Below, piece after piece: positions 18,567-47,500 of a stretch of DNA of 64,000 nt. The DNA lies in contig CP114119.1 in NCBI GenBank assembly GCA_029959195.1, positions 620,001-684,000 of the forward strand, in the 5' to 3' direction. Source of the DNA: Dictyophora rubrovolvata (lineage: Eukaryota; Basidiomycota; Agaricomycetes; Phallales; Phallaceae). The notes under the pieces were generated by a model, which saw nothing but the letters and a program-made list of their open reading frames with translations, made no database searches and had not been told where the DNA came from. Within the stretch, counting starts at the first letter, position 1; every line of letters begins with the position of its first letter. Both the position numbers and the translations under genes were made by a program.

Positions 18567-19563
18567 CTATGGAAGGCTACCTTTCGTGAAGAAATGTACC
18601 CAAAAATCTCCGGTTGGAGAAGGCATGAGACCCCCATTGCCTCTAGTCTTGAATCCCATTGAAAGATACTTCTTAACATTCTCTTCAGTTGCGGTCGCCA
18701 GTCCAATGAATGTTCCTTCGGCCCTCGCCTGATAAAACACGATTCAGTAGCGAACCTTTAATTATGGTTAGGCACTGACCCTTTTGAACATCGTATTGAC
18801 AATTGCGGTTGCATATCCTTTCCCTTGATGCTCGGGATGCGTGGCCAGGTTATAACACCACCAGCGTTTTGCGATTTCCTGTTATGACCCCGTAAGTAAT
18901 GATATTCACTGGAGTGAGTTACACACACACACCTCTTTCGTGAAATGATTTTGATCTAATTTTGTGATCTCTTCCGGATACTACAGTGTTTGTTCTGAAT
19001 TAAATGAATAAATGCTTGAAGCGGGGACACAAACTGTTTTGCTCATCCATGTTTTGGTCTCATCACTGAGTTTTTCAAACCATGTGTCGTATCCGAGTGC
19101 ACGTTGTTGTTCGCTAACATATAGGAATTGATTAATTGAAGGTATTAACTATTCTCACAAAGCATACCTCCCGAACAGCGCTTTGCCATCGCCGAACCAA
19201 TAGCCGGCGCTTACGATTTTCTCGTCCGCTCCTTTCCCGACCGTAACGACATAAACAACCCCTTCAAGTAAGGATGCTCGTAACATGGCCATTTCCATCT
19301 CATAAAGAAGACTCCAATCGCCGCCAACGAAAGCTTTCATCGAAATGTCTGATTTTGGGTGTCAGACTATGGAGCATTCCCGGAGTGGGTGGCGTGGCAG
19401 CAGCTGGTCAGCCTTACCTCCGTAGAAAGCATCGGCGAAAAAATCTACAATTTCTTTTATCTGAGACTCTAAAGTATGATTCAGAATATGTACTATGTTC
19501 ATTAAAAAATCATATCGGAATACCTGTAGCATCTGTGAGTTGCTTGACCTGAAAGGAAACCAT
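18567..19563 (-). CDS. GNAT-family N-acetyltransferase, copy 1
   Basis: Start ATG at 19561-19563 (MVSFQVKQLTDAT). Then come exons reading KAFVGGDWSLL, LRASLLEGVVYVVTVG, SAGYWFGDGKALFG, ALGYDTWFEKLSDETK and RWWCYNLATHPEHQGKGYA. The last exon reads ARAEGTFIGLATATEENVKK ... DFWVHFFTKGSLP before stop TAG at 18567. HPEHQGKGYA is the acetyl-CoA-binding Q-x-x-G-x-G/A loop of GNAT enzymes. Five or so short introns are needed. The substrate cannot be told from sequence. The gene lies about 280 bases from the last peptide gene and on the same strand. Closely related copies occur at 30466-31445 and from 63109. Confidence 0.82.
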
Positions 19564-19840
19564 GATCTGGGGGCAAGTACGATGATGTGATCTTCAGGAG
19601 AGGTTATCCCCCCATATATGTATTTACTTCCCATGTTTTATTTTTGGAGTAGATTCTTCACCATTTACCAATGGTTGAGGTTTCCCGCGATGTTATCCGA
19701 TGCTATTCATCAATCAACAAATTCATATGGGTCTGAATCTTTCTGAACTGAAGATTGTGCTTAATTCTATTTTTAGATTTTGTCGCCGCGTGAATCTAGA
19801 CACTTCTACTAGCAAACTTATTCATGTGTAGTTGAACACA

Positions 19841-20164
19841 TCATTTATCCACGGGAGTCAGCTGGAGAGCTGGGACAAGAGGACCAAGCTCAATTTCTAA
19901 TCAGAAGCTAGCGGTGAGAAAATATAGTACTGATAGTCTAGAAGAATAATAACCTCCATTATCAGTGGTTGATTCAGAATCTGAAGAAACATCGTCTCGC
20001 AGGCTAAATGAAAGCGCTTCTAAAAAGTTCGAGGACATGTAAAAACCTTGCATAGATGTATGAAACTAAGCAAACTCACTATCATCGCGTTTCAATGGAG
20101 CAAGGGGACTGGCAAGTATTACAGCGAGTTGGAATGAGAGTAGGAATATGGAGAGATATTTCAT
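19841..20164 (-). CDS. Small secreted peptide precursor A (68 aa)
   Basis: Start ATG at 20162-20164, stop TGA at 19841-19843. Three exons with two phase-1 introns of 60 and 57 bases; lengths add up exactly (207 coding + 117 intron = 324). Exon 1 encodes a signal peptide MKYLSIFLLSFQLAVILAS then PLAPLKRDD, where KR is a candidate Kex2 site. Exon 2 is an acidic Ser-rich linker (KALSFSLRDDVSSDSESTTD). Exon 3 ends the protein with EIELGPLVPALQLTPVDK. There is no cysteine and no CaaX end. Gene structure is well supported by the paralogues; function is inferred. A ribosomal-peptide (RiPP) precursor is the favoured idea because of nearby UstYa-like genes, but a plain small secreted protein is possible. 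Confidence 0.72.
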
Positions 20165-20230
20165 TTTGCTGAGGTTTGAATTTCCAAAAAAACCTTGTTA
20201 TTGAACTGACTCGGAGAGACAGGAAGTTCA

Positions 20231-20240
20231 ATTTATATTC
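20231..20240 (-). promoter_or_regulatory. TATA-like element of peptide gene A
   Basis: Minus strand reads GAATATAAAT about 70 bases before the ATG. The same block stands before the other intact paralogues. Confidence 0.45.
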
Positions 20241-20404
20241 AGTCATTAAAGATGATTTTCACACAGCTTAACTGAATTATCCAATTGGCAACATCATAAC
20301 CAAATTTTCGAATGTTCTGAATCTTGCTTCTGAATTTACATCAACAAGATAAAACTTCCGCAAAACCATCGCTGCCATCGCAATAGGTAACTCCGAAGCG
20401 ACTG

Positions 20405-20675
20405 ATCTAGTTCAAAAATTAGTGAGTGAATATAATGGTAGCATAATAATGACCTTCACTGGCAGGATCAACGGTTGATTCAGGATCTGAAGCGACATCC
20501 GAGTCGTCTCTCAGACTCAGAAATGAAAGCGCTTCTGAAAATTGGGAGACATGTAAAAATCGGGCATAGATGTAGGAAACTAAAGTCGCCGCGTTTCAAT
20601 GGAGCAAGAGGACTAGCAAGTATTATAGCAATTTGGAATAAGAGGAGGAACACAGAGAGGCACTCTTGTTGAGGT
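20405..20675 (-). pseudogene. Peptide precursor B, broken copy
   Basis: The signal region is still readable (LSVFLLLFQIAIILASPLAP then LKRGD), as is the linker exon (ALSFLSLRDDSDVASDPEST). However, the position matching the start ATG of its sisters reads AAG. The first-intron donor is missing (CGCGGCGACTTTAG where sisters have a GTGAGT donor). The expected core exon is absent: downstream of the linker the sequence passes straight into the promoter side of unit A. Three independent defects make this a dead copy. Confidence 0.75.
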
Positions 20676-21098
20676 TTGAATTTATGAAAAGAAATAATTC
20701 GGCTGTTGAACTGGCCCGGAAAGACAGGAAGTTCGATTATATCGTCATTAACATGGCTTCCACGCAGCTTTATTGAATTGTCCAATCACCAGCCAAGTAT
20801 TCATATCCACGATTGAAGAGTCTCTGAATGGTCCATCGGTATCAACAGGTGGGATGAAAAACTGGCGCAAAACCATCGCCACCATCGCACTTGAAACAAT
20901 AAGCAACTCTAGGGCGACTAATATTTGGAGCAGGTGGTGTAGATTTATTAATGAGCCGGGTTTCCCTTCGGTTAACAGAGTCATAATTACGGATCTGAAT
21001 CTGTCTGAGTTGAAGACTGTGCTTGGTTTCATTTTTGGATTTTATGTCCACATGACACTGAACACCAAATTTATTCATGTGTAATTGAGAAGAATAAT

Positions 21099-21431
21099 TT
21101 AATCGCATTCCGTGGCGGTTAAAGTCAGAGCTGGGACAAGAGGACCAAGCTCAAGTTCTATTGGTCAGAAATTAGCGTTGAGAAAATATGATACCGATAG
21201 AATAATAACCGTCAGGATCATCGACAAAATCACTGCTCTTTTCCATCGTGGTTGATGTTCCAGGATCGATAATTGGGAGCATCTCTGAAAATTGGGAACA
21301 CATGTAAAAACTTGGTTGCATAGAACATGGAATCAAGGAAACTCACCGTTTCCGGATTCCGATGAAGGGAAAGGACTGGCAAGAATTACAATAAATTGGA
21401 ACGAGAATAGGAGCATAGAGAGGTATCTCAT
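21099..21431 (-). CDS. Small secreted peptide precursor C (72 aa)
   Basis: Start ATG at 21429-21431, stop TAA at 21099-21101. Two phase-1 introns of 62 and 52 bases; 219 coding + 114 intron equals the 333-base span. Signal peptide MRYLSMLLFSFQFIVILAS, then PFPSSESGN instead of the PLAPLKR pro-region, so the Kex2-like KR is lost here. Linker EMLPIIDPGTSTTMEKSSDF. Core exon ELELGPLVPALTLTATECD, nearly the same as in copy A through ELGPLVPAL. It is the only copy with a cysteine. Confidence 0.72.
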
Positions 21432-21507
21432 TTTGTTTGCTGAAACGGAACTCAGAAGAAACTGAAGTATTGAGCTTGACTCGGAAAAAAACAGGAAGTT
21501 AGAGGTT

Positions 21508-21520
21508 CATTTTATAATCA
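21508..21520 (-). promoter_or_regulatory. TATA-like element of peptide gene C
   Basis: Minus strand reads GATTATAAAATGA about 80 bases before the ATG, at the position matching the TATA-like block of copies A, D and E. Confidence 0.4.
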
Positions 21521-21939
21521 GTTATTAAATGATTTCCACACAACTTTGAGCTGTTCATCTGTTTAACTGTCCAATCTATCAACACAACAACAAGATTTCG
21601 TGCCCATTGACATGATTGAGAAGTCAAATTTAGATGTTCCGGGCAGATTATATCAACAGGTAATGTGAAAAAACTTCGCTGTCTCACTTGAAACAATAGA
21701 TGACTCTGTGACGACTGATGGCAGATTCGTATTTTATTTCTGGAGCAAATAATATAGATTCACTAAAGAGCGAGACTTTTCGCAATGTTTACCTCAATAA
21801 ATCGAATAAAAAATAATATGTATCTATCTGTTCCTTTAATACTTTGATTTCCCAGCTCCAATATCGCTTGGGTTTAGACAGATATATTTATTTACATATA
21901 CATATATAATTGGAAAGACAACTGTGTAATTTAGACATA

Positions 21940-22261
21940 TCAATCCGCCGCAGCGGTTAACGCCTCTGCGTCGGTAAGAGCACCAAGGTCAAGTTCTAAC
22001 CAGGAGGATTAGTGGTGAGAGGGTATAATAGCAATGGGATACTGGCCTTCGTGATTAATGATCGATTTAGGACTCAGGAGAGCATTATCCCTCAGGTTGA
22101 AAGAAATACCCTCTAAAGATTGGGTAGATGTAAAGATCTCGGGTAGATTCAGATATATGCAACTAAGGGAACTCACTATCGTCGCGTTCCAATGGAGCAA
22201 GGGGACTGGAAAGGATTACAGCAATTTGGAATGAAAGCAGGAACACAGAGAGGTATTTCAT
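21940..22261 (-). CDS. Small secreted peptide precursor D (68 aa), GC-donor second intron
   Basis: Start ATG at 22259-22261, stop TGA at 21940-21942. Introns of 64 and 51 bases; 207 + 115 equals the 322-base span. Signal peptide MKYLSVFLLSFQIAVILSS, then PLAPLERDD, where the KR of copy A has become ER. Linker KGISFNLRDNALLSPKSIIN. Core ELDLGALTDAEALTAAAD, clearly changed from ELGPLVPAL. The second intron must start with GC (GAAG|GCCAGT) where sisters have GT. GC-AG introns exist but are weaker, so this copy may be spliced poorly or be decaying. Confidence 0.6.
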
Positions 22262-22325
22262 TTTCTGAGATTTGAATTTACAAAAAAACTCGGCTGTTGA
22301 ACTGACTCGGAAAGACAGGACGTTC

Positions 22326-22335
22326 AATTTATATT
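22326..22335 (-). promoter_or_regulatory. TATA-like element of peptide gene D
   Basis: Minus strand reads ATATAAATTG about 70 bases before the ATG, as in copy A. Confidence 0.45.
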
Positions 22336-22815
22336 CACTCAGACTGTCGCAAAATTCCTAACGCCCTAATTTATTAGCGAAACTAATCAAGGCTCTAGCA
22401 AGCTTTATAAACGGTTTATCAATTTGGTTCCCATGAGAAGTCAAACTTTGAATGTTCTGGCTTCTGAGATCACATCATGAGCACAGGTATGTACTAAGGT
22501 GAAGAAACTTCCGACTTCGCTGTCGCACATGGAACAAATTAGATGAACGTGACGACTGAGAGCACTGGGTACACATGTTATCCTTGAGGCAGATAACACT
22601 TCATTATTTCACGAGCGAGGTGTCCCGCAATATTTGTTTCAATCAATAGAATTATAAATCTAAGTTGGAATCTGTCTAAGTCGAAAATTGTGCTCAAATT
22701 GTGCTCCTCAATTTTAATTTTAAGTTTTATGTGGATGTAAATAATTGTAACAGTTAAATTTATTCATAGATAATTTGAGAATACGATGATAATTCATATC
22801 ATTCATTCGCTTAGG

Positions 22816-23082
22816 TTAAGTTAGGGCTTCTGCGTCGGAAAGAACCTCGGGTTCTAGTCGGGGATTATCGATTAGGGGTGAGAGAGTATAATATTATTGT
22901 GATAACAACCTTCGTCTCTCAGGCTAAATGAAAGCGCCTCTGAAATTGGGTATACGTAAAAACATAAATGTATGAAACTAAAGAAACTTACTATCGTCCG
23001 AGTCATGCTTCAGTGGAGCAAGAGGACTGGCAAGGATTGCAGTGATTTGGAATGAAAGAAGTAATACAGAGAGGTATTTCAT
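22816..23082 (-). CDS. Small secreted peptide precursor E (52 aa, short linker)
   Basis: Start ATG at 23080-23082, stop TAA at 22816-22818. Phase-1 introns of 52 and 56 bases; 159 + 108 equals the 267-base span. Signal peptide MKYLSVLLLSFQITAILAS, then PLAPLKHDSDD. Linker shortened to KALSFSLRDE. Core EPEVLSDAEALT, which shares DAEALT with copy D but ends earlier. It is the first unit of the array, nearest the But2-like and UstYa-like genes. Confidence 0.68.
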
Positions 23083-23884
23083 TTTGCTGACTGAAGACTT
23101 GACTTAAAAAGACAGAGGTCGGTTTCAAAAGCTCAATTTATATTCAGTTATTCATATGGTTTTTACGCGGCTTTATTGAATTGTTTCTCTGTTCAGTGTA
23201 TAGCGATCGGGATAGCAATGAAGATCTCGTACCCGTTTTTGAAAAACCTTTGGAGGTTCCGGCTCCTAGTTAGGCATTAACCGGTAATTTTTTTTTAAAA
23301 AAAAAAAACTGCGCAAAACATTTTTTCCCTTGAGGCTTTACCTTTTTAAATTCATGTCTCACAGCACTGTGAGTCAGGCTATGACGGCTGATAACAGGCT
23401 TATATAGTACGATCTATCCTAGAAACTGATCATGATGCAAGTGGCGTAGGACGGTCTGGCTAAAACGGGTAGTTAACAAGCTCGCCCAATTGGAGGTTGA
23501 TACGCGATCTCAGTTCCTATCTTTAGCTACTTGACGTTATATTTATCTTCCTTCCCAGATAGGAAGAAAGCCAAAAAAATGCCAACAATGAAGGTTCGAT
23601 GCATAGTTCCGGGGTATTTCGAATGGCTTCAGCCATTTCGAAGATCATCAAAACGGGCGTGCAGCGCGCATTTTTAAATATAGAAAAACAAAGAATTCTG
23701 ACGGACAAAATCACAGTCAGTCGTAATACCATCATCTATTTCACCGCAACTTTTTCTGAAGCGATTTTATTGATTGGAAAGGTCGAACCATCTCAGCGAG
23801 ACCTCAAGCTGCAGGTAAGTTGTTTTCTTAAATGACAAATAAACTCGTTTTGATGACTCTTTACACCCTCGTGCATACTAGACA
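23083..23884. other. Divergent promoter region between peptide array and membrane-protein gene
   Basis: The array (minus) and the But2-like gene (plus) are transcribed away from each other here. The region has T and A runs near 23287-23308 and the short repeat 'gtggcgtaggacggtc' (also near 18048). No convincing gene was seen; open frames around 23523-23835 match nothing. Confidence 0.45.
23135..23145 (-). promoter_or_regulatory. TATA-like element of peptide gene E
   Basis: Minus strand reads GAATATAAATT about 55-60 bases before the ATG. Confidence 0.45.
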
Positions 23885-24910
23885 ATGTTACAACCAAATA
23901 GTGGTGCTCGGTATCAGAAACTTCCTGAAGACGAGGCCCTGCTTGAAGACGACGGTTAGCCTACATTGGTCTCAGTCAAGATTTACTGACATCCAGCACA
24001 ATTTAGGAGTGGCTGAACCACACGCAGAGTTGATTAAGCCCAACGTACTTGCGAAATTACTCAAATTTTCGATTACAATCATACTTATATGCGCCATTTT
24101 GGATGGGGCTCTTTTGGCCTACTTCCTCTTCCATTCCAAAAGCACATCTCTCCTGGCTGCATACGACATACGAAATTTAGAGTCACCTAGTTCTTATGGC
24201 AGATTAGAACGACTCTATCGCCATAAGCCTGCCTCTGTGACTTTTCCACCGATTCACAACCGCGCCCGGTATTTCATTCAAGTGTCCTCAAAAGAACGCA
24301 CGAAAAGTCATAGAATGTGGCCTGCGCTCACCCAAGGCAACGTTGGCCAAGGACTTGTGCCTAATGCAAACAACTATCTTCAAGTAACAGACGAGGTCAG
24401 CTTCTCCTTAAGTTTTCTACGAAAAGACAATCTGACGCCGCAAACGTCAGGTTTCGACGATTGTCCAATTTCGGACCATGGATTTTGGGATGGAAAATTG
24501 CAGTCTCTATTTTGATTTCCCATCTATGCCTACTACCCCGACGGGCGTAACGCAGATATCAAGTTCCGAAGGCGAGACTGCGACGCTTCATGTGTGGATC
24601 TTGGAAAGCGACAAAAAGCTGAATCCCCGTCAGATAACTTGGAACACCAAGCCTGCTCGTCGAAAGTATCTTGGTTCAGATCAAATCAAATTTGGGACAA
24701 AATCACTACTCTCTACGTTCAAATGCAAATCGGGCTCATATCAAACTTTCGAAATCGGTTGTTCCAGCAAAAATTGCAACGTAACAAGTACTGACTTTGA
24801 ATGGAAAAACGATGGTGCGTTTTACACTTTCCGGCATTCTAGACTCTAGTATTAATAACGATTCTCTCTTACTCCTAGCATTCTACATAGTTCAGAGTCA
24901 GACTATCTAA
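23885..24910 (+). CDS. Single-pass membrane protein with But2-like C-terminal domain
   Basis: Four exons (23885-23954, 24007-24395, 24451-24814, 24879-24910) join in frame to 284 aa. N-terminus MLQPNSGARYQKLPEDEALL is cytoplasmic in style. One membrane helix follows (LLKFSITIILICAILDGALL), then a luminal/extracellular part. The second half carries STIVQFRTMDFGMENCSLYF, a segment with paired cysteines (FKCKSGSYQTFEIGCSSKNC) and the end AFYIVQSQTI. This pattern fits a common Agaricomycete family sometimes annotated as But2 C-terminal-like; the biochemical role is unknown. It is the first plus-strand gene beside the peptide array and could share its regulation. The gene model is strong; the family name is from memory of the pattern. 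Confidence 0.75.
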
Positions 24911-25443
24911 TCTAAGCAAGCAACGAGCCGATTGTATTTACTTTATTATCAGAAAATCCATACTCCGTTCGTAGAAGTCGAATACTGTGACCGCTGTATA
25001 AATATAATTCATCTATTTTGATATTATTGTTGGCAACAAGTGTCGAATAAATCTCTTGCTTGAGTTTCCCTATCCATTTGGATCCGAGCCGAGATGACAG
25101 TGGCGTGTCATCAGCCTGACTAGAATGTGTGCCAAAATGGAAGCTACGGGAATTCTGCATCGAATGATGACCAGAAATAGCATAAAATTGATAAATGTCG
25201 CAGAAATCGGAAAAATCCGATTTGATCTGGCCAGGCTTATGAGACCTAGACGCAACCAACGATTTCTCTTCACCAAGTTGTCTGGAAGTCCGGCCGGCGG
25301 CTGGGTCGAAAATTCATGTCAGAAGTCAGGACATTCGAATTTTGGTGACACTGACAACGCCCTAAACTTCTTAACTCGAAGCTTCCTGTAAAGCTTGCAC
25401 TTTTTTTCATAACCCTTATTCCTACCTTGTAATTCCCTCCCAA
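24911..25443. other. Gap with only unassigned open frames
   Basis: Overlapping frames on both strands (for example minus 24912-25259) show no domain, signal or splice support. I treat this as intergenic. Confidence 0.4.
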
Positions 25444-26041
25444 ATGTATCTCACCCTCTCCCTCAAAATCGGAATCGTTATATCTGCGGTCGCAAAGGGA
25501 GTGCTCCTAATGGTTCTCTGGAACGTACGGAGTAACCATTCAGCTCACAGCCAGCCAATGTACAGTGGGTTCATGTTTTGAGGACATTAAGAAGTAGAAA
25601 CATTCATTGATTAGACTTACGTCTCACCTACCAGTTTCTATGAATAGGGACCTTCCTAGTTTTCAAAAGACTCCGAATCGCCTCGTGTATATGAGCATAG
25701 AAGACAGCGTTCATTATAGAATCTCAGAACCTGTAGCGGACGCGGAGTGGGCTGAACTCATTCCCAACGGTGGTCTGGTCCAGGTCAACAACGAAACATA
25801 CACCATAACACTGTTCCATCAATTACGCTGCCTTGACATTGTACGCAAAGGTCTTAGAGACAGGATGACAAGTCATCCTGGAGAGCTTGAAAGACATTGT
25901 GTTAATTATTTACGCCAGACGTTAACGTGCCGGGGTGACGTCCATATGGAGATATTGGGAGGTCCTTTGAGCCACACGCAAGCAATTCAAGATTCATTCG
26001 TATGTAATGATTGGGAAAGGGCATATAATAACTTTGATTAA
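25444..26041 (+). CDS. UstYa-like (DUF3328) protein 1
   Basis: Two exons (25444-25564 and 25635-26041) give 175 aa. The N-terminus MYLTLSLKIGIVISAVAKGV has a membrane-anchor stretch. The body has NRLVYMSIEDSVHYRI, EWAELIPNGGLVQV, LFHQLRCLDIVRKGL, HCVNYLRQTLTCRGDVHME and VCNDWERAY, in the order typical of UstYa proteins. Known: UstYa/UstYb-family proteins catalyse oxidative steps (cyclisation, hydroxylation, chlorination) on fungal peptides such as ustiloxins and cyclochlorotine, and use His/Cys motifs. Here the first motif is HQLRC rather than HQLHC, and the second His of the other HxxHC box is displaced, which is common in basidiomycete members. The substrate is inferred to be the neighbouring peptides. 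Confidence 0.82.
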
Positions 26042-26505
26042 TTACTTTGTAATTACATAAATCCCGAATTAGTCACCAATGAAAAGCCTAGCTTGCGATA
26101 TGCAGTTGGGCGTTAAAGTTGGTGGGACCTGGAGTTTGGCATATTAGTTCCATACCATGACGAGGGGGGATAAACATGACACGCGATCATTCAATCAGTG
26201 TCAAGTAAGATCAAGCCCCTGAAAATACCCGAACAACAGAAGGTGCCGTGGGTGTCAGGTTTTGCCTAAAAAGGACGGAGCAGTGGGAGAGGTCTCTCTT
26301 AATCAGAACAAACAATTACTGAAGACTTGGAAACCAGATGCGCTGAAGACCCCAGACTGACTTCACCAGAAAAAGAATATATCTCTAATCGTGTACCAAT
26401 GATACCCCAGTGCACTGGTCAAGCCATACCAAGGTCAGAAGTCCGTGCTTAACGCAAATCGGATAGTATATTCATATACTACGCTCGTCCGTTCCTAGTT
26501 TTTAC
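26042..26505. other. Spacer between the two UstYa-like genes
   Basis: Upstream region of the second UstYa-like gene. No gene or repeat was recognised. Confidence 0.4.
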
Positions 26506-27243
26506 ATGTCCATGGGCATAACGTCAAACCAGTGGCAAGCAGGAGCAATCCTCTCCATAGCCATTCTCTCCCTTCTCACCACAGTTCAACTAGTTCGAAT
26601 TATATTCGTTCCTTCAGAAAAGTACTGGGGGGAACTTCCACCAACAAGTACTTATAGTGAGTCATGTCGTTTGTGTTCTTTTCCTGTTCATCACAAACTA
26701 TCCGCTAGCATTCCAGGATGACGATTACGCTCCTTTTCTCACCGTCCCATTTGGTCCTCCAGTAGAGATGGATTTTGAAGAGACTGTTCATTACCCTCTC
26801 ACTCTACAGGACGGGTTTGACGAGGAGTGGCTGTATAACTTACCTTTCGGTACGGGAAGTTATAGGATCACAAACGAGGACGGCCTTATTGTTACGGAGA
26901 TCGCGGCATTCCATCAACTCCACTGCCTGAGACTATTCATAAGAGATATGAATGCGCGGAACGCGAACGCCAATTTAGACCACTCGCACCATTGTTTGAA
27001 TTACTTGCGTCAAAGTTTCTTATGCGAAGCAGACACCACACTGGAACCAAAGGAGTTCTTCACAAAGAATGCCACCCATTATTACGGCCATCCGACCAGA
27101 ATTTGCAGAGATTGGACAGTTCTCTACGACGCTCTGGAGGATAATTGGAGGGACTGGCGTCGTCATCACGCTTCGAATACTCGTGAGTTTTTCCCCTGTA
27201 TGCGTTTTGATTACGTGAGGATAATTTTTCTTCAGCAGCATAA
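26506..27243 (+). CDS. UstYa-like (DUF3328) protein 2
   Basis: Three exons (26506-26656, 26709-27182, 27236-27243) give 210 aa. The final exon adds only two codons and a stop; an alternative acceptor at 27238 would give a slightly longer end. A membrane anchor (AILSIAILSLLTTVQLVRII) is followed by TFQDDDYAPFLTVPFGP, EETVHYPLTLQDGFDEEWL, FHQLHCLRLFIRDM, HSHHCLNYLRQSFLCEADTT and RICRDWTVLYDALEDNW. Both HxxHC boxes (HQLHC, HSHHC) are intact, unlike in protein 1, so this looks like the catalytically complete partner. Two UstYa-type proteins acting together is a known arrangement in ustiloxin-type pathways (UstYa plus UstYb). Confidence 0.87.
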
Positions 27244-28241
27244 AATTAAATATTTTACAGTAGAAACCTAAGCTTAACACGCATTATGTTTTCGCTATAT
27301 GTTCGTTGTGAGTAAAGTGGATCGGTAGTATTATAGTATCCATGATTACATGGCAATGTCCTATTTTTCGTTATTATTATTCGGCTATTTTTGTCAATCT
27401 CGTAGTGAGTTAGCAACAAAACGAGGCGTATTGCCCATATCCAACTTGGGCTCTGTTCCGCTTCTCTGATTGGAGCCTGAGGTTTGCCATATCTCACCAG
27501 CACGGATCACTGCGGTTAGATAGGCCCCTCATTTATGACAATAATAAACCCCGAAATTTTGAAACTTGTTTTGGTACCTTAATATTTTGTTTGAATTGTC
27601 CGTGAAAGAATAATCCTTTTTTACTCTCCATGCATATGCCATGTGACATAACCTCTTTCAAAATGATGCGTCAGCCAGTCAGACGAAAATACAACTCCAA
27701 TTTCCATCCTCAACCTTCAAGATAGGCGTTTTTTTGAAATCGAATCGGTCGTATAAGTAATACGATAACAATGTGAGAAACTGTCGGCAAAAAATTCAAA
27801 TAGATTCATCAACCAAAAATGGAAAGGCCGCTCAATAAATTTCCGCTGTGCCATGAATGGCACGGACACGTGACTGTGATCATCGTGGGTGGGAACCACC
27901 GCGAGTGTTAAACGTTAATGGTACCGACTTCGACGCAAACCTTCAATCAAAACAGTAACAGTTGCCTCTGACAGTTGCGGTTCGGTGGGAAGAACCACAG
28001 CTGCTATCGTGACTTGTATACGATGGGCAGTACCTATATCAAGAAGCAATGTCCTTCTATAGACCATTGGCAAATGACACATCGGGAGCGCCAGACAGAA
28101 ATGATGCGATTCAAGGAAGTGAGGTGATATCTCTGGCTCATTCCGTAAATTACCCACGCACAATTTCCATTAAGAAAGCAGGGTTCTTCTCGAGTTGGTG
28201 TCTCGGGGAGATTCTGCATAGACGGTTTGAATATCGCTCTA
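27244..28241. other. Spacer, nothing recognised
   Basis: About 1 kb between the UstYa-like gene and the 7-TM gene. Minus-strand frames at 27915-28270 are antisense noise by my reading. Confidence 0.4.
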
Positions 28242-29505
28242 ATGTCCACGAACTTGACGGCCGATCCCATTGATCACCCGCTTGAAAGGTCATTTTACAT
28301 CGGAAATGCTCTCACATGCATCTTATACGGCAGGTCTTTTTTATACTCATACAACTATCAACTAAACTATGTACAGGGATCCTCTTGTATATGTGTTTCC
28401 ATTCGATACTACTTTTCAGAGATAATCCTTCCAGGACTAAAGGGATCGCCCGCTATATATATGTGTGGTATAGCTTAGCCATGGTCGTCCTTCTGGCATT
28501 TGCTTTGATGGCAAACCTCCTCTTAGGCCAATTCATGTGGATAGAGCATAGGAATTTCCCTGGAGGACCTGTCGCCTATTTCAATGATGAGAGCACAATC
28601 TGGTTTAACGTTTTGGGTTCAGCCGCGGATGTTGTGGCCGACTACCTTAGCAACGCCCTCCTTGTCAATATTTTTCTTAACATAGTAAGACATATACTGA
28701 TGCTGTTCATAGATTTATCGTTGTTACATCATTTGGAACAGGCAGTGGAAGATTATAGCTTTCCCATGCCTGGTATACCTCGGTGCATCTGGTAAGCCTC
28801 TGTCCGAGCTAAGCAACCAAGAGCTACAGCATAATGATTGAGGACATTTTCAGTAATGGCGATGTTTACCGTGATTGAAAGTGCGCTGCCTCTATCGAGT
28901 GTTTTCGCCAAGCAATCTGTTAGTTTTGCCATTCCGTGGATCTCACTAACGTGCGGGTTGAATGCTATGATAACGATACTAATTGCCGGGAGAATCATCT
29001 ATCTTTCCAGAGCAATTTCCGGTGTCCTCCCTCGAGAAAACTCCCGGATATATACGAACATTGTTGCTATTCTCATAGAGTCAGCGTTGCCTTTCACGCT
29101 CCTTGGCATTATCTTCGCTATCACTTTGGGGAAAAATATTCAAGAAAGCGTTGCTTTTTCTGACATATGGGGAACATTTGTGGTATGTGGACAGGAAAAT
29201 AATAGCTTGAAGTCTCCCTGATCAAGAACACATTATAGGCACTATCTCCACAATTTATCATTTACCGTCTCGCAATGGGAAAAGGATGGACTGATGCGAC
29301 AGTCTCCGAATTTACATGTTCGCTGAATTTTAGTAACGCAAACACGACGTCGACTCTCCCAGTTACGAATTTTTCGGACAAATCTGATAACGTATCTGAT
29401 ACGTCCAAATCTTTACGCAACCCAAATTTCGACTCCTCCATCAATTTCGGTGCTTCCGGCACAACAGTCTTTGCGAAGGACCTCGAAAAGGGCATGCGTA
29501 TCTAA
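28242..29505 (+). CDS. Seven-transmembrane protein of an Agaricomycete-expanded family
   Basis: Five exons (28242-28329, 28377-28663, 28713-28791, 28854-29182, 29239-29505) join in frame to 349 aa. Start MSTNLTADPIDHPLERSFYI. Family landmarks in order: NALTCILYG, RDNPSRTKGIARYIYVWY, LLLGQFMWIEHRNFPGGPVA, WFNVLGSAADVVADYLSNAL, IYRCYIIWNRQWKI, SFAIPWISLTCGLNAM, GRIIYLSRAISGVLPREN, IESALPFTLLGIIFAI and ALSPQFIIYRLAMGKGWT, then a Ser/Asn-rich cytoplasmic tail. Known: this receptor-like family is widespread in mushrooms with no assigned ligand. The first intron needs a GC donor (28330-28376, GC..AG). Whether it belongs to the peptide cluster or merely sits there is open. Confidence 0.85.
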
Positions 29506-30465
29506 CAATAAGAGCCTTTGAAACATTATTTCAGATTTTCGATTTGATGGAAGTGTAGATATGTATCTCGGTATATGTATACTATGCAGCTCAATAGTAA
29601 TCAAAAACATTAGCGGCCCACCATCTGTCCGCATAATTCCACAGATTATATGTCACTCAATATTTTTGGAAAAAAAAGGAGCTTGAACTGGTAGGAAAAC
29701 TTCCGAACATTAACATCTTTATGTAGGTCTCAGAAGGCCCATATGATGACCTCTGGGTGAAGTTGTTCGAGTCAACATCATGAATAAATACAAGCGTTAT
29801 TCACTGATTCAATATAGTCCATTCACACGTGAGCCAGTGCTGGATCATATCATCGCGGCTCTTCGAGAGGAGAGAGTGCAAAACGCTAATCCTAAACGTT
29901 AAACCCTAGGCGGCCCGGATCAGTGATCTGGGTTTGTGCTCTGGAGGAGGTTAGCCGATCTGGAAGGCTTCGGAGCGCTCTGAAGCCTTCCAGATCGGCT
30001 AACCTCCTCCAGAGCACAAACCCAGATCACTGATTAGTAGCGTCTAGGTAGGCACACGGCGCAAAAGCGTATTATGAACAGTTCAACTGCTTATTCTTCC
30101 TGAGCTGAGATGAGATTCCCGTATGTGGTGTGATTGAAAATTAGAAAAGCAGGGGAAAGAAATATGAGCCATCAATCCGAAACCAATATACTTTGAACGG
30201 CAAAGACGACACAGTGGTCTCGGCAGAAATCGGTATACCTATTCCAATTTGATCTTTCATTCGAGCAATATCAAACAATTGAACAGAAGAGTGTGAGCGA
30301 GCATGGTCGAGGGATCTATGTAAGATCATGGAGCGTCGACAGTATCGATCCCAAGGGAAGTAGTCTGATAAGCGTATATAATGGCTGAATTTCTTACGAA
30401 CCAATAACAGATAATCCCTTCAAGTAGCCACCTAATAGCATATGCGCCGAAGGATGAGATAGGAG
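29506..30465. other. Spacer with a large palindrome
   Basis: Contains no gene I can support. Its notable feature is the palindrome at 29919-30034, listed separately. Confidence 0.5.
29919..30034. repeat. 116-base near-perfect palindrome
   Basis: Two 58-base arms meet at 29976/29977 in GAGC|GCTC. Every base pairs except 29972 (G) with 30081-equivalent partner 29981 (T). Outer ends read ATCAGTGATCTGGG and CCCAGATCACTGAT. The transcript would fold into a single long hairpin with no loop beyond the turn. It is unrelated to the LTRs in this window by eye. It could be a foldback/MITE-like element, a hairpin RNA source or a recent inverted duplication. Confidence 0.9.
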
Positions 30466-31445
30466 TTATGCAAGGGAACCTTTCGTAAAGAAGTGTACCC
30501 AAAAATCTCCGGTAGGGGCAGGCATGAGACTTCCTTTGCCTCTACGCTCAAATCCCATGGCGAGGTACTTCTTAACATTCTCCTCAGGTGAAGTTGCCAG
30601 CCCAATGAATGTTCCTTCAGCTTTGGCCTGATAAAATAAGCTCATTCGGATTATGATCTGGACGGTATCAACAAACGGACCTTATTAAACATTGTTTGCA
30701 CAATAGCGGTTGCATATCCTTTCCCTTGATGCTGCGGGTGTGTGCCAAGATCAAAACACCACCAACGTTTTGCAATCTCCTATTATGACTTTGTAAAGAA
30801 GAGTGTCATTCACGAGGTAGATCCTCACGCACCTCTTTAGTAAAGAGACTTTGAGTGAGTTTCATTATCTCTTCTGCATACTGTGTATATTCAAGCTCTG
30901 AATTATATCAATAATACTTGAAGCAGAAACATTGACACGAACTGTTTTGCTCAGCCAATATTTGGTCTCATCGCTGAGTTTCTCAAACCATGTGCTATAT
31001 CCGAGTGCGCGTTGCTGTTCGCTAAAAAAGGAAAAGAAAACGAACGAAGTATTTAGCGATATTTTTACAAGCATACCTTCCAAACAGCCGCACGCCATTG
31101 CCAAACCAACAACCAACGCTCACGATTTTCTCATCTAATCCATTCCCAATTGTGACGATATAAACAATCCCTTCGAATAAGGATGCCCGTAAAGAGGCCA
31201 TTTTGCATTCGCGAAGAAGACTCCAATTGCCGCCAACAAAAGCTTTTGCTGTTATATCTGACTAGGAGTGTCAGATAACAGAACGTATGTCCCCCAGAAT
31301 GACTTACCTCCGTAGAAAGCATCGGCCTGAAAATCTGCAATTTCTTGTATTTGAGACTCTGTGCATGGTTCAGAATATGTTTCACCCAAGATAATACCGA
31401 AATACCTGTAGCATTTGTGAGTTGCTTGACCTGGAAAGGGACCAT
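30466..31445 (-). CDS. GNAT-family N-acetyltransferase, copy 2
   Basis: Start ATG at 31443-31445 (MVPFQVKQLTNAT), stop TAA at 30466-30468. Same exon plan as copy 1: KAFVGGNWSLL, ASLFEGIVYIVTIG, ALGYSTWFEKLSDETKYWL, RWWCFDLGTHPQHQGKGYAT with the acetyl-CoA loop, and DFWVHFFTKGSLA at the end. It seems intact. Together with copy 1 it brackets the peptide/UstYa block, both on the minus strand. Substrate unknown; N-acetylation of a peptide product is only a speculation. Confidence 0.8.
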
Positions 31446-32033
31446 CGCTGATGTGGGTACGCACGTAGATGTGGTTGTTTAGCCTGCTCTATATATTTAT
31501 TTTTGTAAGCGGGAAGGTTTGGATCCGTCAGAATCCAATAGGTTTTATCTCCGTATTCATGTGAACTCTGATTTAGATCGGCTTTTGGTGGCCGTGACCG
31601 CGAATACGATAGAATACGACATATTGTTCAAAATTGCACATAGTTTAATCAATCCCTTAATCAGCATCGACAATACAAGTTTATGATATACTTGAGAGTT
31701 AACACAGTCGGAGAGAGAGCATATGCAATAATGCAGAGCGCAGTGAGTTAGTTGGTCGCATTCGGCTAAACGGGGCTGGATGAGCCGGTGCAGGGAAGTC
31801 CACAAGCAGTAAATGAAAAAGGAGACCCTGTCACGTGGACAGCGCTTAGCGGCCTTACCTCAGCCAAAATGAATGAAAGTTCTGACATTTCCAGTGACTT
31901 CAGCTCGTGCTCGGTGAATTCCCTTGCATGTAATGCTAGGGCTCTACGGGTCATCTAATTTGCTTCCATGTGCTATTTATTTTTGTTTGTATATGTGGAT
32001 CTAGTCTTAAACTAATACTCTAATCTACTATCT
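31446..32033. other. Spacer before retroelement 1
   Basis: No recognisable gene. Its last five bases (TATCT, 32029-32033) are the left target-site duplication of the next element. Confidence 0.45.
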
Positions 32034-32138
32034 TGTAAAAGTCGGAAGACTTTTACACAAGAACTTCTATTAACAGCCAGGACGGGATCAAGTAAACTCT
32101 GGCGATGGGGTCCTACAGAACAACGAGCCTTTGAAACT

Positions 32139-34820
32139 GTGCAACATTTAGTTAAGGAGCATAGAGATAAACATCGTGTTGCTATTGATTATGCACCTGG
32201 TGCCGAACGTATCAATTTAGTTACGGACGCTTGTTTAACGGGTGCCAGTGGTGTTTTAACACAAGGAGATGATGTTTCTAAGGCGGCTGTTGTTGAATTT
32301 TGGTCAGGAAAATTCGATGTCGCACAACAGAATTATCCGGTACACGAACAGGAATTATTGGCCATTGTAGAGTCCTTGAAACGGTTCCGCTCGCAGTTAC
32401 TGGGGATCAAATTTCGCATCTGTACAGATCATAAAGGGCTCGAATATTTTATGGCACAGAAAAATCTCTCACCACGACAGCACCGTTGGCTTGACATCCT
32501 CAATCAGTTTGATTTTGAGATTTCTTACATCCCTGGCAAAACGAACAGTTTCGCGGATGCTTTATCTCGGATGTACAGTGATGAACCTGCGGGAACAATT
32601 CGTGCTGACAGTGAATATATTCAGGATGAAGATGAGGATGATTTAGTACACGAGAACGTCGAGTCATTTGCACTGTTCATGCGGGCAATATCAGCACCAG
32701 TCTATACGGGAAATACTACAGTGCTGCCTACTCGACGTTCCACTAGATTGCACCAAAAGGACCAGTCCAGATTCAAACGAGTTTTACAGTCAGTGAAGGA
32801 GACATTGAGACCTAAAAGTTCGCGTCAGAAGCCAGCCCCAGTAGAGACAGAAGCGATTGTACCTCCAGTTAGGGAGAACTTTCCAGTAATGGATAGTTTG
32901 CTGGTTGAAGACGATATGCCTCCTTTAGAGCTGCTAGAAGATGACGTTGAGGAGCATGTTGAGGAGCATACTACAGGAGAGGGGAACATACCAATATTAG
33001 TGAACGAGAAGGGCTTGGACGATGGTGTAGGTGTAACTGAGTTGATAAGAGACAGTGAACTTGGCGTGGATGTTAAGGAATTAGCTAAAGCGACATACTT
33101 TAACGATCCATTCTTTCGTCATATATGGGATAAGCCGAATCACTTCAAAGACTTCACTATGCATTTGGGGTTAATTTATTTAACATCGAATGGTTCCTAT
33201 TCCTTGTGTATACCGGATGCTAAGGCTGGCGATCGACGGTTGCGGGAAATACTGATAAATTATGCGCATACATTGTTGGCTCATTTAGGCTCTCACAAGA
33301 CGTACTCTTACCTGCGGGAACAAGTGTGGTGGCCTAAAATGTTGTCCGATATAAAAGCTTTCTGCTTTTCTTGTCAGCTATGTGCTATGTCCAAGTCGAG
33401 CCAACAATCACCATTGGGGCTACTTCGTTCTTTGGAGATCCCGACCAGACCTTGGCAGGCGATTGGAATTGACTTCGTGGGACCTCTGCCTGCATCTAGG
33501 AATCGGCATGGTGAATTTGATCAATTGTGTGTTATAATTGATCATCTCACCTGCATGGTGCACTTGGTTCCAACACGAGTTAATTATAAAGCTTCTGATA
33601 TGGCGGAGGTTATTTTCGACGTCATATACAAGCAACATGGCTTACCTGAACGCATTGTCAGTGACCGGGATTCCTTATTCACTAGTTTGTTTTGGAAAGA
33701 GTTACACAGACTCCTGCAAACGGAACTGCGCATGTCTTCGTCCTTTCATCCTCAGACGGATGGAATGACCGAGCGGGCTAACAAGACGATAGTCCAAATG
33801 CTTCGTCAATGTGTGTCGAGAGATCAGAAGGATTGGGTGACACGCTTACCTGGAATCGAATATGCTTTAAATTGTGCCCGTTCAGATACTACGGGATTTT
33901 CTCCATTTTACTTGAATTATGGTCGAATGCCAAGACCACTAATTTGGGATAATGACTCAGAGTACCCGGGCGTGGTGGTCTTTGCGGAACGAATGAAAGA
34001 AGCAATCATGTCTGCACATGACCACATAATAGAGGCAAGAGTCAGACAGACGCGTTATGCTAACAAGCATCGACGCGAGGCCCCGTTTAAGTTAGGCGAT
34101 CTGGTTTATCTGGCTACAAAGAACTTGAGATTACCAAAAAATCTTACGCGAAAACTGATACCTAAGTACATCGGCCCGTTTAAAATTATGCAGGTCATGG
34201 AGCCAGGTTCAAGTTATAAACTTGAGCTGTCGGCGGCATTAAAGCGTCGGGGAGTACATCCAGTGTTCCATGCAAGTTTGTTACGAATACATGTTCCTAA
34301 CGATGATCGACGGTTCCCGGGCCGTCAATTTGAGCAAATTCCTGTTTTTGGAGGAACGGCGAAGGAGTGGGCTGTGGACCGTATCTTGTCCCATTCAGGG
34401 AAAGGAGTGAATGCTATGTTTGAAACCAGGTGGAAATCTGGCGATGTCACCTGGTTAACATTTGAGGAAGTACGGCATTTAGAGGCACTGCAGGCTTACT
34501 GTGAAGTGATCGGGATTTCTAATCCTAGGAGCATCCCCGCACCAATACCACTTAACCCTGACCATTCATCGGCAATGGTGTCCGTTAATTTGTTAAGACC
34601 GACCGGGTTGGGGCTTGGAAATGCATATAAACAGCTTGATAACAGCGAAAAGTCTTTACCCCATACGCCTGTTATCCACTGTTCTGCCATCACACCTGTT
34701 ATGTCCGGCATGGGCGACTCGGATGTTGTCCTGCCACGAGACACTTTTAAATTTGTTATAAAAACGATGATGGCAGAGTCTCATACATGCTATCAAGCAG
34801 GATTGGAGGTCCGTGAATGA
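32139..34820 (+). CDS. Pol remnant: RNase H, integrase, chromodomain
   Basis: An 893-codon open frame without an ATG at its start; the frame extends a little further 5' into the last residues of reverse transcriptase (WRWGPTEQRAFETV). RNase H: LVTDACLTGASGVLTQGDD, YPVHEQELLAIV, RICTDHKGLEYF. Integrase: zinc-binding H..H..CQLC region (LLAHLGSHKTYSYLREQVWW, SCQLCAMSK), then IGIDFVGPL, RIVSDRDSLF and SFHPQTDGMTERANKT with the D, D, E residues. The C-terminus has a chromodomain-like stretch (EWAVDRILSHSGKGV, VTWLTFEEV), marking a chromovirus. The long intact frame suggests recent truncation. Confidence 0.85.
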   Translation: MQHLVKEHRDKHRVAIDYAPGAERINLVTDACLTGASGVLTQGDDVSKAAVVEFWSGKFDVAQQNYPVHEQELLAIVESLKRFRSQLLGIKFRICTDHKGLEYFMAQKNLSPRQHRWLDILNQFDFEISYIPGKTNSFADALSRMYSDEPAGTIRADSEYIQDEDEDDLVHENVESFALFMRAISAPVYTGNTTVLPTRRSTRLHQKDQSRFKRVLQSVKETLRPKSSRQKPAPVETEAIVPPVRENFPVMDSLLVEDDMPPLELLEDDVEEHVEEHTTGEGNIPILVNEKGLDDGVGVTELIRDSELGVDVKELAKATYFNDPFFRHIWDKPNHFKDFTMHLGLIYLTSNGSYSLCIPDAKAGDRRLREILINYAHTLLAHLGSHKTYSYLREQVWWPKMLSDIKAFCFSCQLCAMSKSSQQSPLGLLRSLEIPTRPWQAIGIDFVGPLPASRNRHGEFDQLCVIIDHLTCMVHLVPTRVNYKASDMAEVIFDVIYKQHGLPERIVSDRDSLFTSLFWKELHRLLQTELRMSSSFHPQTDGMTERANKTIVQMLRQCVSRDQKDWVTRLPGIEYALNCARSDTTGFSPFYLNYGRMPRPLIWDNDSEYPGVVVFAERMKEAIMSAHDHIIEARVRQTRYANKHRREAPFKLGDLVYLATKNLRLPKNLTRKLIPKYIGPFKIMQVMEPGSSYKLELSAALKRRGVHPVFHASLLRIHVPNDDRRFPGRQFEQIPVFGGTAKEWAVDRILSHSGKGVNAMFETRWKSGDVTWLTFEEVRHLEALQAYCEVIGISNPRSIPAPIPLNPDHSSAMVSVNLLRPTGLGLGNAYKQLDNSEKSLPHTPVIHCSAITPVMSGMGDSDVVLPRDTFKFVIKTMMAESHTCYQAGLEVRE

Positions 34821-34850
34821 GAGATAAACAACTCCGCTCGTCGTTGGACG

Positions 34851-35501
34851 ATGACAACGCCTTTGGCATTGCGACTTTCATCTCCAGGTTATTTAAACAC
34901 TCCGGTTCCTCTAAATGCGCCAGTAGCTCCTAAAGCGATGTGTGCACCTCGACGAGGGATCCCGACGCATCCAGGACACGGATTGCCGTTGGCAGACAGG
35001 GTCGGTCCTCATGCGATATCACCGGATTCTCGCCAGGGACGCTCCAGCGATGGTTCCAAGCGTAAGCTATTGCCAGGGCTGTCTAAAAACCAACGAAAGC
35101 GTCAGAGGCGTAGAGAGAGGGAGGCGCAAGAATCTTCCTCTGGACCCTCTAACCTCGAGGGGTTGGGGTTGGTGTCGTTTACCGTTGCTGCGCCGGTCTA
35201 TACAGACTCCGCTGAGTCACGTGACGGGGACGCGACAGTCTCTGTGGATCCGGAACTGCTTGCCTTACCTGTACCTACGGTAAATGAAGTGCCTGCTATT
35301 CCTACGTTGGTGAACAATGACGCTGTGATGTTTGACGAATTTCTCATTGACTATGGGGATGCGGACGCGGAAGGCGAGTTCGTTGCACAGGAAGACATTG
35401 TTGAATCAAATAGTCCAATTCCGAGTAGAGCCGTGACTCCTATTGATTTCGAAGAGTTGGACTTGTTGGGAATTAGTGATGGGGAAGGTGGATTCATTTG
35501 A
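34851..35501 (+). CDS. Accessory ORF downstream of pol, function unknown
   Basis: ATG at 34851, 216 aa, beginning 30 bases after the pol stop. It is Pro/Ala-rich at first (LNTPVPLNAPVAPKAM), then basic (KNQRKRQRRREREAQESSSG), then acidic at the end (DYGDADAEGEFVAQED). No known domain. Extra 3' ORFs in fungal Ty3 elements are uncommon. It could bind nucleic acid through the Arg-rich stretch. Confidence 0.5.
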   Translation: MTTPLALRLSSPGYLNTPVPLNAPVAPKAMCAPRRGIPTHPGHGLPLADRVGPHAISPDSRQGRSSDGSKRKLLPGLSKNQRKRQRRREREAQESSSGPSNLEGLGLVSFTVAAPVYTDSAESRDGDATVSVDPELLALPVPTVNEVPAIPTLVNNDAVMFDEFLIDYGDADAEGEFVAQEDIVESNSPIPSRAVTPIDFEELDLLGISDGEGGFI

Positions 35502-44467: not shown

Positions 44468-44576
44468 ATTTGGTGGCCAAAGTGGGGGGAAAAAACCGAA
44501 CCTCTTTGTGGATATAGACTTCCCCACGAAGATTTATTGGAGTGGCTCCTAAGCCAGAGACGATTTCGACGACGCG

Positions 44577-47500
44577 ATGGATTCTCCACCTACGACACCG
44601 ATGAAGACAGCCGCCTCTATCCCCGAAGAAACAGGTTCTTCTTCAAGACCTCCGGAAAACACTGAAAATTCTACGACAATGCCTTTAACCTCTAAACCCC
44701 CTCCGATTAACTTAAACCCTACTTCAGACGACAGAGGCGACATCTCCACAGGCCCTGGGCGTCGACTGGATACAACTATATTGTTGTCTCCTACAGTGAA
44801 AATTAATTTTACTGGTGAACCACTTCTTACGCTGAATGCTGAGGATGTATTACTCTCACCGGATAAAACGTTTTTGGTCCCGGCTACGTCACACCTATGC
44901 AGGACCTACGAATTGAATAGATCGTTGGAACATCGTCGAAATGCGATAGTTCACTATGCTAGAGAAAATATAAAAAGTTCAGGAAGATTGCCATCCGCAA
45001 ACTTGCCTAGAGAAGCTGAAGAAATCTGTGAAGACTTACTTGGAGATTTGGACCATGTTCTAATTGGCATTCCATACGACAGTGATGTTCTAGAATACAT
45101 TGGGTATCACCTCGACCCAATCAAGTTTGAAAACTTTGTTCACAGACTTAAACGTTTCGCAAGAAGAGCTAAACGGAAGCTTACCGACTCACCTAGTATC
45201 CCAGTATGGGGTATTGATAATTGGCCATTGGATGTATGGTCTGCGGATCAATTTGAAGTATTCTCCGCGCTTTATAGAGATGAAGTAGAGTCATATCTAG
45301 CTCATCTGTTTCATAACGACGCTCTCATCCCTCCAGAGTCTATCGAAGGTGGAAAGGGAAAAGAGCCAGAGCCAACCGAGACTGAGGGGATCAGACCAAA
45401 GGTAGTACAAATAAAAGAGGAAGTTACCTTTGATTCTGAAAGAGCTGTTGTTATGCCCAAACGTCTCGCGGCTATACAAAAGGAAACCTCAATACGCGAA
45501 GGACACTCGGAATCAAAAGGCTTACAAGGTATCCAGCGATTCGAGCCACGTATTCCAACTCCCATTCCTCGCAGTCGCTTGCCTTCTACCCTTTCTGATA
45601 CTCGTCGTCTAAATGAGTTGTTCCACCCGTCTCGCTTTGAAGGTCAGAGTTCCGTTCCCAGGACTCGAGTTAGCGGTGGAGCTGGAGGACCACCAGACGG
45701 AGGGGATGACTCTTCCGATGATCAATCGTCAAAGCCACCTCATAGAGAGCCTGGTTCTCCTTATCCTTTTGGACCCTCACGAGGAGGTAGAGGCCCGGGT
45801 GGTAACGAATCATCAAACAATGGAAATAGCGGCGGACTTGGACTCCCACGCCGTAACGGGATTTCCACCCCTGCATCAGGCCCGATTGATCCTCGTGAAC
45901 CCTACTTTGATTTAAGACTTAAACCGGAGTCCATCGAGAAATGGGATGGTGATCCGGATACGCTAGCCTTGTGGATAGTTAAGAATAACCATCTGTCGAG
46001 TAGGAGCAATCAGGTTTATCAACAGATGGGAATACTTGTTGCGAATCGCCTGGAGAAAGGTGCAAGCCAATGGTTCTGGAACTTGTCAAGGACGCGACGC
46101 GAACGGGCTATGCAAAATTGGGGAACATTACGAGCCGCGATCGGAACTTATTATATGAATCGAACGTGGATGGATAAACAGAAGATTAGAGCTGACAAGA
46201 TTCGTTATCGGGAATCCGGGCATCCTGACGAGTCCCCAACCGAATACGTTATAAGAAAGAAGGCGCTCCTCGATCTTGTCTATAATTATACAGATTCGGA
46301 ATTGATTATGGTGATAATGGAGGGTGCGCCAAGATATTGGTCTATGATTATACACCCGCACGATTGTCAGACGATGGATCAATTCGAAGACATAGTCAAG
46401 TATCATGAGGAAGAACTCATGACACCGCCAGGAGGACATCGCGAGATCAATCTTGAACGCCGTATTCGGAATCTTGAATTGAACGTCAAGCCCTCAAGCT
46501 CTAGGAGTTCTTTTAATAATGACAGATTCCGAGCTAGAAGCAACCTCATTGGACAGACACCTTCGTTGGGAAAACCTCCTTATCCGAAAGACGATTTGAC
46601 AATTTCAAAGGGAAACACTCCTGAAATGAAAGGAGCTCGACCTTGTCGACACTGCGGAAGTCTGAAACATTGGGATAATGAATGTAAATACGCAAAGAAA
46701 GGAGCGAAGAGAGTTCGAGTTAACCTTGCAAATCCCAGCGAAGAATATCTTGGAGCATTAGAGGAGTATGAAGAAGCTTATTTAAATGCATTCTCTCTTG
46801 ACGAAGAAGATGAACCTCCGGATCTTGTGGACTTGCCCGAAGAAGACGTTGATGAAGGCCTTACGACTTCAGCAAATCAAGCTCATGTAGCTTCAGCTTC
46901 AATGGTTTCAGCAAGGGTCTTGAATACGAATGCTTTTGACAATGAAACCATTCAGGAAGGACATCCGGCTTCTCCTGATTCAAAACGCAGATTTTTACGA
47001 AACGTTTTCAAGGCAACCAATTTTATTTCAAACATCTGTAAATCCGTAGCGAAGGAGATTCTAACCTTGCCACGAGTTATGTCTCAGCCGGCTGGAAGTT
47101 CTTTTATGGGCGCAAGGGCCATCGCCGTAGAAGCCTGGATAGGAGTCTATGGAGAGAATAAGTCACGAGTGATTATCGATTCAGGAGCAGATATCACCTT
47201 AATCTCACATGCCTTCCTTTCTACTATGAGATTAGCCCCAAAGTTGAAGAAGGGTCATCGAGTGAATCTTATTCAAGTTACCGGAGCCTCGACCATTTCA
47301 GGATTCGTTTCCGTGGCCGTATATTTCGACACTGAACTAGGACCAGTGGAATTGTTTGTCGACGCCTACGTCGTTAAAGGCATGACGATGCCTTTCATAT
47401 TCGGGAATGATTTTGCCGACCAATATGCCATTTCTATATTGAGGAACGATGAAGGAGCTTCCATTATGTTTGGGAATTCTGGACGAGTGATGAAGGCCGG

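Follow-up and report, generated by a model that had tools for sequence, protein, structure and literature searches.

The closest described systems are the dikaritins (ustiloxin, phomopsin and asperipin-2a), in which, as in both clusters reported here, a signal-peptide precursor is encoded near DUF3328/UstYa genes. The cores of UstA are flanked by ED and KR motifs (PMC6514808). The passages of another account name dikaritins only from ascomycete classes, and consider a single-core precursor possible in lichen DUF3328 clusters (PMC12048977). The DUF3328 copper enzyme CctR is described as a hydroxylase of cyclochlorotine. It has a single N-terminal helix as anchor and a domain modelled in the lumen, and forms a homodimer with two coppers per monomer at HxxHC..HxxHC. 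Alanine substitution of its conserved His and Cys residues abolishes activity, and its authors hypothesise an accessory protein that delivers electrons or Cu(I) (PMC12435403). Among basidiomycetes, Pleurotus has 16 UstYa-like genes, six of them developmentally expressed, which are called “probably involved in dikaritin production” in passages that name neither a precursor nor a product (PMC8893723).

A basidiomycete UstYa precursor cluster was not found among the matches listed in open-licence literature (titles, abstract starts and passages), nor was any description of DUF3328 together with But2 within the same scope; both are weak evidence of absence. A query for UstYa with HXXHC and copper had no open-licence match, and one for a UstYa heterodimer gave nothing relevant by title among the matches listed.

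We describe two related clusters of precursor, But2 and UstYa genes. The first lies in the window, the whole 64,000-nucleotide stretch analysed (C3:620001-684000), and the genome searched comprises 28.2 Mb in 11 contigs. All gene models, in the window and in the sister cluster, were spliced by hand. A sequence-only reading had proposed four intact three-exon genes for signal-peptide proteins of 52-72 aa, and our models of P1, P3, P4 and P5 (window 19841-23082, minus strand) bear this out, each with a leader exon, a linker exon and a short last exon (Table 1). Their secretion is predicted from hydropathy. The intact precursors, including P6 of the sister cluster, have a TATAAA-type upstream block in common; the decayed copy P2 differs there and has no ATG at the position where the other copies start. 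With P1 as the DNA query, the genome yielded five matches, all within the window array, and the four non-self matches have E values of 7e-21 to 4e-37. The array is therefore not a product of chance. The same reading had placed two UstYa-like genes 2.4-3.4 kb away and GNAT genes on both sides. Both UstYa genes pass the PF11807 cut-off, their starts lie 2.4 and 3.4 kb away from that of P5, and the GNAT assignments also held. The But2 gene, the decayed copy P2 and the paralogous cluster outside the window had gone unmentioned.

Table 1. Genes of the two clusters and the flanking GNAT genes. Positions are those of the window unless prefixed with C3; bit scores are given against the Pfam cut-off.
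Feature	Position	Strand	Product	Remarks
GNAT acetyltransferase gene 1	18567-19563	-		passes Pfam cut-offs
P1 precursor gene	19841-20164	-	68 aa	exons 20080-20164, 19954-20019, 19841-19896; hydrophobic leader, then KR site, then modelled core EIELGPLVPALQLTPVDK
P2 decayed precursor copy	about 20439-20671 (extent approximate)	-		without start ATG
P3 precursor gene	21099-21431	-	72 aa	no dibasic site; modelled core ELELGPLVPALTLTATECD
P4 precursor gene	21940-22261	-	68 aa	no dibasic site; modelled core ELDLGALTDAEALTAAAD
P5 precursor gene	22816-23082	-	52 aa	no dibasic site; short modelled core EPEVLSDAEALT
But2-domain protein	23885-24910	+	284 aa	4 exons (hand model); PF09792, 51.4 bits against 24.2
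UstYa-A (DUF3328)	25444-26041	+	175 aa	PF11807, 52.3 bits against 25
UstYa-B (DUF3328)	26506-27243	+	210 aa	last exon (8 nt) uncertain; PF11807, 55.6 bits against 25
GNAT gene 2	30466-31445	-		DNA relative of GNAT 1, aligned blocks 75-90% identical
P6 sister precursor	C3:703213-703711	-	99 aa	hand model
Sister But2	C3:704456-705482	+		
Sister UstYa-A	C3:706232-706837	+		
Sister UstYa-B	C3:707727-708480	+		

PF09792 exceeds its cut-off at two genome loci, which are the two cluster But2 genes (51.4 and 44.0 bits against 24.2). The window But2 protein has a single strongly hydrophobic segment, which begins near residue 46. All four cluster UstYa proteins pass the PF11807 cut-off (41.8-55.6 bits against 25), and the six exon hits in the genome read as five genes found, four of them in these clusters. 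The fifth lies on C4, at about 2608665-2609607. No precursor match with E < 1 was obtained in C4:2590001-2630000, and no long-period tandem array was found in C4:2600001-2620000. By eye, this lone gene stands upstream of a cytochrome P450-like fragment.

UstYa-A is degenerate at its metal motifs, and UstYa-B is canonical. In the window, UstYa-A has HQLRC and (L/E)ERHC, and UstYa-B has HQLHC and HSHHC. Two of the four copper-binding His residues are missing from UstYa-A in both copies, namely the second His of motif 1, replaced by R in the window and by G in the sister, and the first His of motif 2; UstYa-B keeps all four in both copies. The four are also kept in 16 of 17 database hits to UstYa-B, its own and the sister copy counted. 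Eight of the 17 are named, from Sphaerobolus, Cubamyces, Termitomyces, Heliocybe and Trametes, all Agaricomycetes, and the best named hit is Sphaerobolus stellatus (41% identity over 97%); we therefore take the host to be a mushroom-type fungus. Sequons common to the paralogues (NET in UstYa-A, NAT in UstYa-B, NCS and NVT in But2) fit the lumenal side. Searches of PDB sequences gave a single chance-level hit for the UstYa alignment (E 0.36) and none for But2, and an NCBIfam scan of UstYa-B and But2 gave no match.

The peptide and DUF3328 genes recur as a unit, and the second occurrence is in the same genome. When the ORFs of the window were compared with adjoining parts of the contig, a paralogous cluster emerged 60 kb away (C3:703.2-708.5 kb), its genes in identical order and orientation: a precursor on the minus strand, then But2, UstYa-A and UstYa-B on the plus strand. 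In the hand model of its precursor, P6, the leader ends in LLKR and is followed by four repeat exons (54, 57, 57 and 56 nt), all phase 1-1, with cores EPLGPLSDAVALTPTTDE, ETSLGPMTDALSLTPTTDD, ESSLGPMTDALSLTPRSDE and ETSLGPMTDAASLTPTME. Tandem Repeats Finder detects the exon-plus-intron unit as 106 bp in 3.2 copies. The window exon-3 peptides resemble the P6 repeats when compared with shuffled peptides, at P 0.0002 for P1, P3 and P4, which is the floor of 5000 shuffles, and at 0.006 for P5. So one genome appears to hold one precursor family in two layouts, a gene per core in the window and an exon per core in the sister. The earlier suggestion of many genes with one core each fits the window genes; it fails for the sister cluster, where one gene has four core exons. 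As a side observation, a public protein seems by eye identical to sister UstYa-B over its coding part, so that this species, or one very close to it, has apparently yielded sequence reads.

A DNA search with P1 failed to recover P6, and our whole-genome searches score best candidates only, so that diverged precursors elsewhere would escape. Among 5.8 billion proteins, neither P6 nor an alignment of the five precursors had a homologue with E ≤ 10 (381 and 1927 candidates scored, respectively), though genes this small and this fragmented may escape gene prediction. We set aside a Pfam match of P6 that fell below threshold (E 0.015, 15.5 bits against 27).

But2, UstYa-A and UstYa-B are under purifying selection between the two clusters, with dN/dS values of 0.158, 0.194 and 0.193, respectively, at dS 0.73-0.93. 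The enzymes are still constrained where the spacers have lost nearly all similarity. None is detectable in the But2/UstYa-A spacer or downstream of UstYa-B. The UstYa-A/B spacer keeps one 30-base match, the 3' side of the precursor one 44-base match, and the precursor/But2 spacer short matches only (best 20/21 bases). A third copy of the cluster, at C3:691700-692620 on the minus strand, has decayed to a But2 fragment interrupted by stops, together with pieces that match the two flanks of UstYa-A, which suggests that an unselected copy falls apart.

Selection on the precursors differs between their parts. All six pairs of P6 repeat exons have pN below pS, and identity among these exons is 0.67-0.84, compared with 0.59-0.70 among their introns; their third-position excess is not significant (P 0.13). 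In the window, pN is below pS in every one of the six pairs for the leader exon. For exon 3, pN is about equal to pS in four of six pairs and lower in P4/P5 and P3/P5, so that purifying selection is not clearly evident in the window core exons. This pattern suits a conserved leader with free cores, and also relaxed constraint. Promoters, exons, introns and 3' ends of the window genes are alike in DNA identity (means 0.72-0.83; shuffled control 0.70), and thus DNA identity alone does not mark the window exons.

If intron 2 is spliced as modelled, all eight exon-3 or repeat-exon peptides are free of F, W and Y, and only one core contains Cys. P1 has one dibasic KR, P6 has one, before its repeats, and P3, P4 and P5 have none. 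The P6 repeats have acidic DE/EE borders with no dibasic separators between them, and so lack the Kex2 separators of a classic dikaritin or KEP (KEX2-processed repeat protein) architecture, which we rejected. Mating pheromone precursors were also rejected. In basidiomycetes these carry a C-terminal CaaX box; the C-termini here are VDK, ECD, AAD, ALT and TME, with no CaaX and no Cys at position -4.

We consider it probable, at roughly 0.6, that both clusters are a basidiomycete DUF3328 peptide-modification system, that is, a small ribosomal-peptide biosynthetic cluster. The conserved leader would bring the precursors into the secretory pathway. There UstYa-B, as a membrane-anchored lumenal copper oxidase, would modify the variable, acidic, Leu/Pro/Thr-rich core, probably acting as a dimer with the catalytically degenerate UstYa-A. 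The But2-domain protein, presumably lumenal as well, may help by binding substrate or by delivering copper or electrons. With Tyr, Trp and Phe all absent from the cores, Tyr ether formation would be less likely than aliphatic C-H hydroxylation, halogenation or cross-linking. Since KR occurs only just after the leader, in P1 and P6, and dibasic separators are absent, release would need another protease, or P6 would be modified as a single multi-repeat protein. No protease or transporter is present in the conserved four-gene block. Cores would multiply by whole-gene duplication in the window and by symmetric phase 1-1 exon duplication in the sister. More tentatively, the clusters could define a basidiomycete class of DUF3328-modified peptides whose cores grow by gene or symmetric-exon copying without Kex2 separators, served by an active and degenerate DUF3328 pair and a But2 partner that is possibly the postulated accessory protein; this broader proposal is possible, with the odds against it.

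The identity of the window cores depends on the splicing of intron 2. Were it retained, the true C-termini would be the Tyr/Ile-rich tails GYYSIGIIFSQR, GQYPIAIIPSHH and GCYHNNIILSHP, which are nearer to the Tyr/Ile cores of ustiloxin and phomopsin. The intron-2 donors are indeed weak (GTTATT in P1 and P3, GTTGTT in P5), the second intron of P4 requires GC-AG, and P3, P4 and P5 have open readings of equal length. Against this, the P1 tail does not, by eye, share the register of the other tails, and a branch-like CTAAT or CTGAT, also by eye, stands ahead of all four acceptors. Furthermore, the exon-3 peptides are similar to the P6 repeats at P ≤ 0.006, but the four tails show no match to the P6 equivalent (P 0.10-0.71). 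This comparison favours splicing, and we regard retention as very unlikely.

A segmental duplication keeps gene order whatever the function, so the conserved block does not prove any action of the enzymes on the peptides. Neighbours with no relation to one another, namely a secreted-peptide family, a But2 gene and the UstYa pair, might have been copied in one segment, with each gene kept for a reason of its own. The decayed third copy (C3:691.7-692.6 kb) and the multiplication of GNAT genes on the contig indicate that the region duplicates readily. However, only the peptide, But2 and UstYa genes persist, while the GNAT gene and the gene at ~28.1-29.5 kb are unmatched in the sister block, and both But2 loci above the cut-off and four of the five UstYa genes found adjoin these peptides. 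Linkage by descent only is unlikely. More doubtful still is that the peptides are secreted unmodified, as signal, structural or defence molecules, with the enzymes acting on something else. Several KEP-derived peptides of agaricomycetes are linear and minimally modified (PMC9769878), and a lack of aromatic residues in any core, with Cys in one only, would agree with this. The DUF3328 genes nevertheless adjoin the peptide genes in both blocks. We infer that the peptides are substrates of the cluster enzymes.

A DUF3328-modified peptide system at these loci would share features with several known systems and match none. Like the dikaritins, it has repeated cores in P6; these have acidic DE/EE borders, and the UstA cores are bordered by ED and KR (PMC6514808). 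Unlike them, it has no KR between repeats, no aromatic core residue, and no tyrosinase, methyltransferase or peptidase within the conserved block; it has instead one core per gene or exon, a But2 partner and probably a basidiomycete host. On this comparison it probably works like a dikaritin pathway: DUF3328 occurs with a secreted precursor, and two usual descriptors, Kex2-spaced repeats and an aromatic core, fail. The UstYa proteins resemble CctR in their N-terminal membrane helix, their putatively lumenal domain, with both HxxHC motifs intact in UstYa-B, and their likely aliphatic C-H chemistry. CctR differs in acting on a non-ribosomal cyclic peptide and as a homodimer (PMC12435403), whereas here canonical and degenerate proteins are encoded side by side. 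Like the KEPs of Agaricomycetes under their published definition (PMC9769878), P6 is a repeat precursor, predicted to be secreted, but its repeats have no dibasic sites between them and it adjoins DUF3328 genes.

If experiments confirm this reading, one core per gene and one per exon in a single genome would be a new twist on a known fungal peptide factory. With UstYa enzymes and candidate substrates in two layouts, the question of mushroom dikaritins becomes testable by mass spectrometry. A search for Kex2-spaced repeats would overlook precursors that hold a single core per gene or exon and lack such spacing. The accessory protein that has been postulated to serve DUF3328 enzymes (PMC12435403) has a specific candidate in the But2 gene.

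The GNAT genes are probably bystanders. The five copies found of this subfamily all lie in the 537-684 kb stretch of C3, and three are 81-83% identical to GNAT 2 at the DNA level. Around the copies at C3:537 and 586 kb, no cluster gene was found in C3:520-600 kb, and the copy closest to the sister cluster is ~19 kb away, with none adjoining the sister block. The earlier inclusion of GNAT 1 and GNAT 2 in the cluster is not supported by these positions, and we judge their membership unlikely. A gene-like stretch at ~28.1-29.5 kb had no Pfam match (two ORFs tested) and no counterpart in the sister region. A near-perfect palindrome at window 29905-30048 (72-nt arms, 90% complementary, no spacer) is possibly a small inverted-repeat element. 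Between the two clusters, window 32016-35501 and 44553-51863 contain long ORFs that by eye resemble LTR retrotransposon polyproteins.
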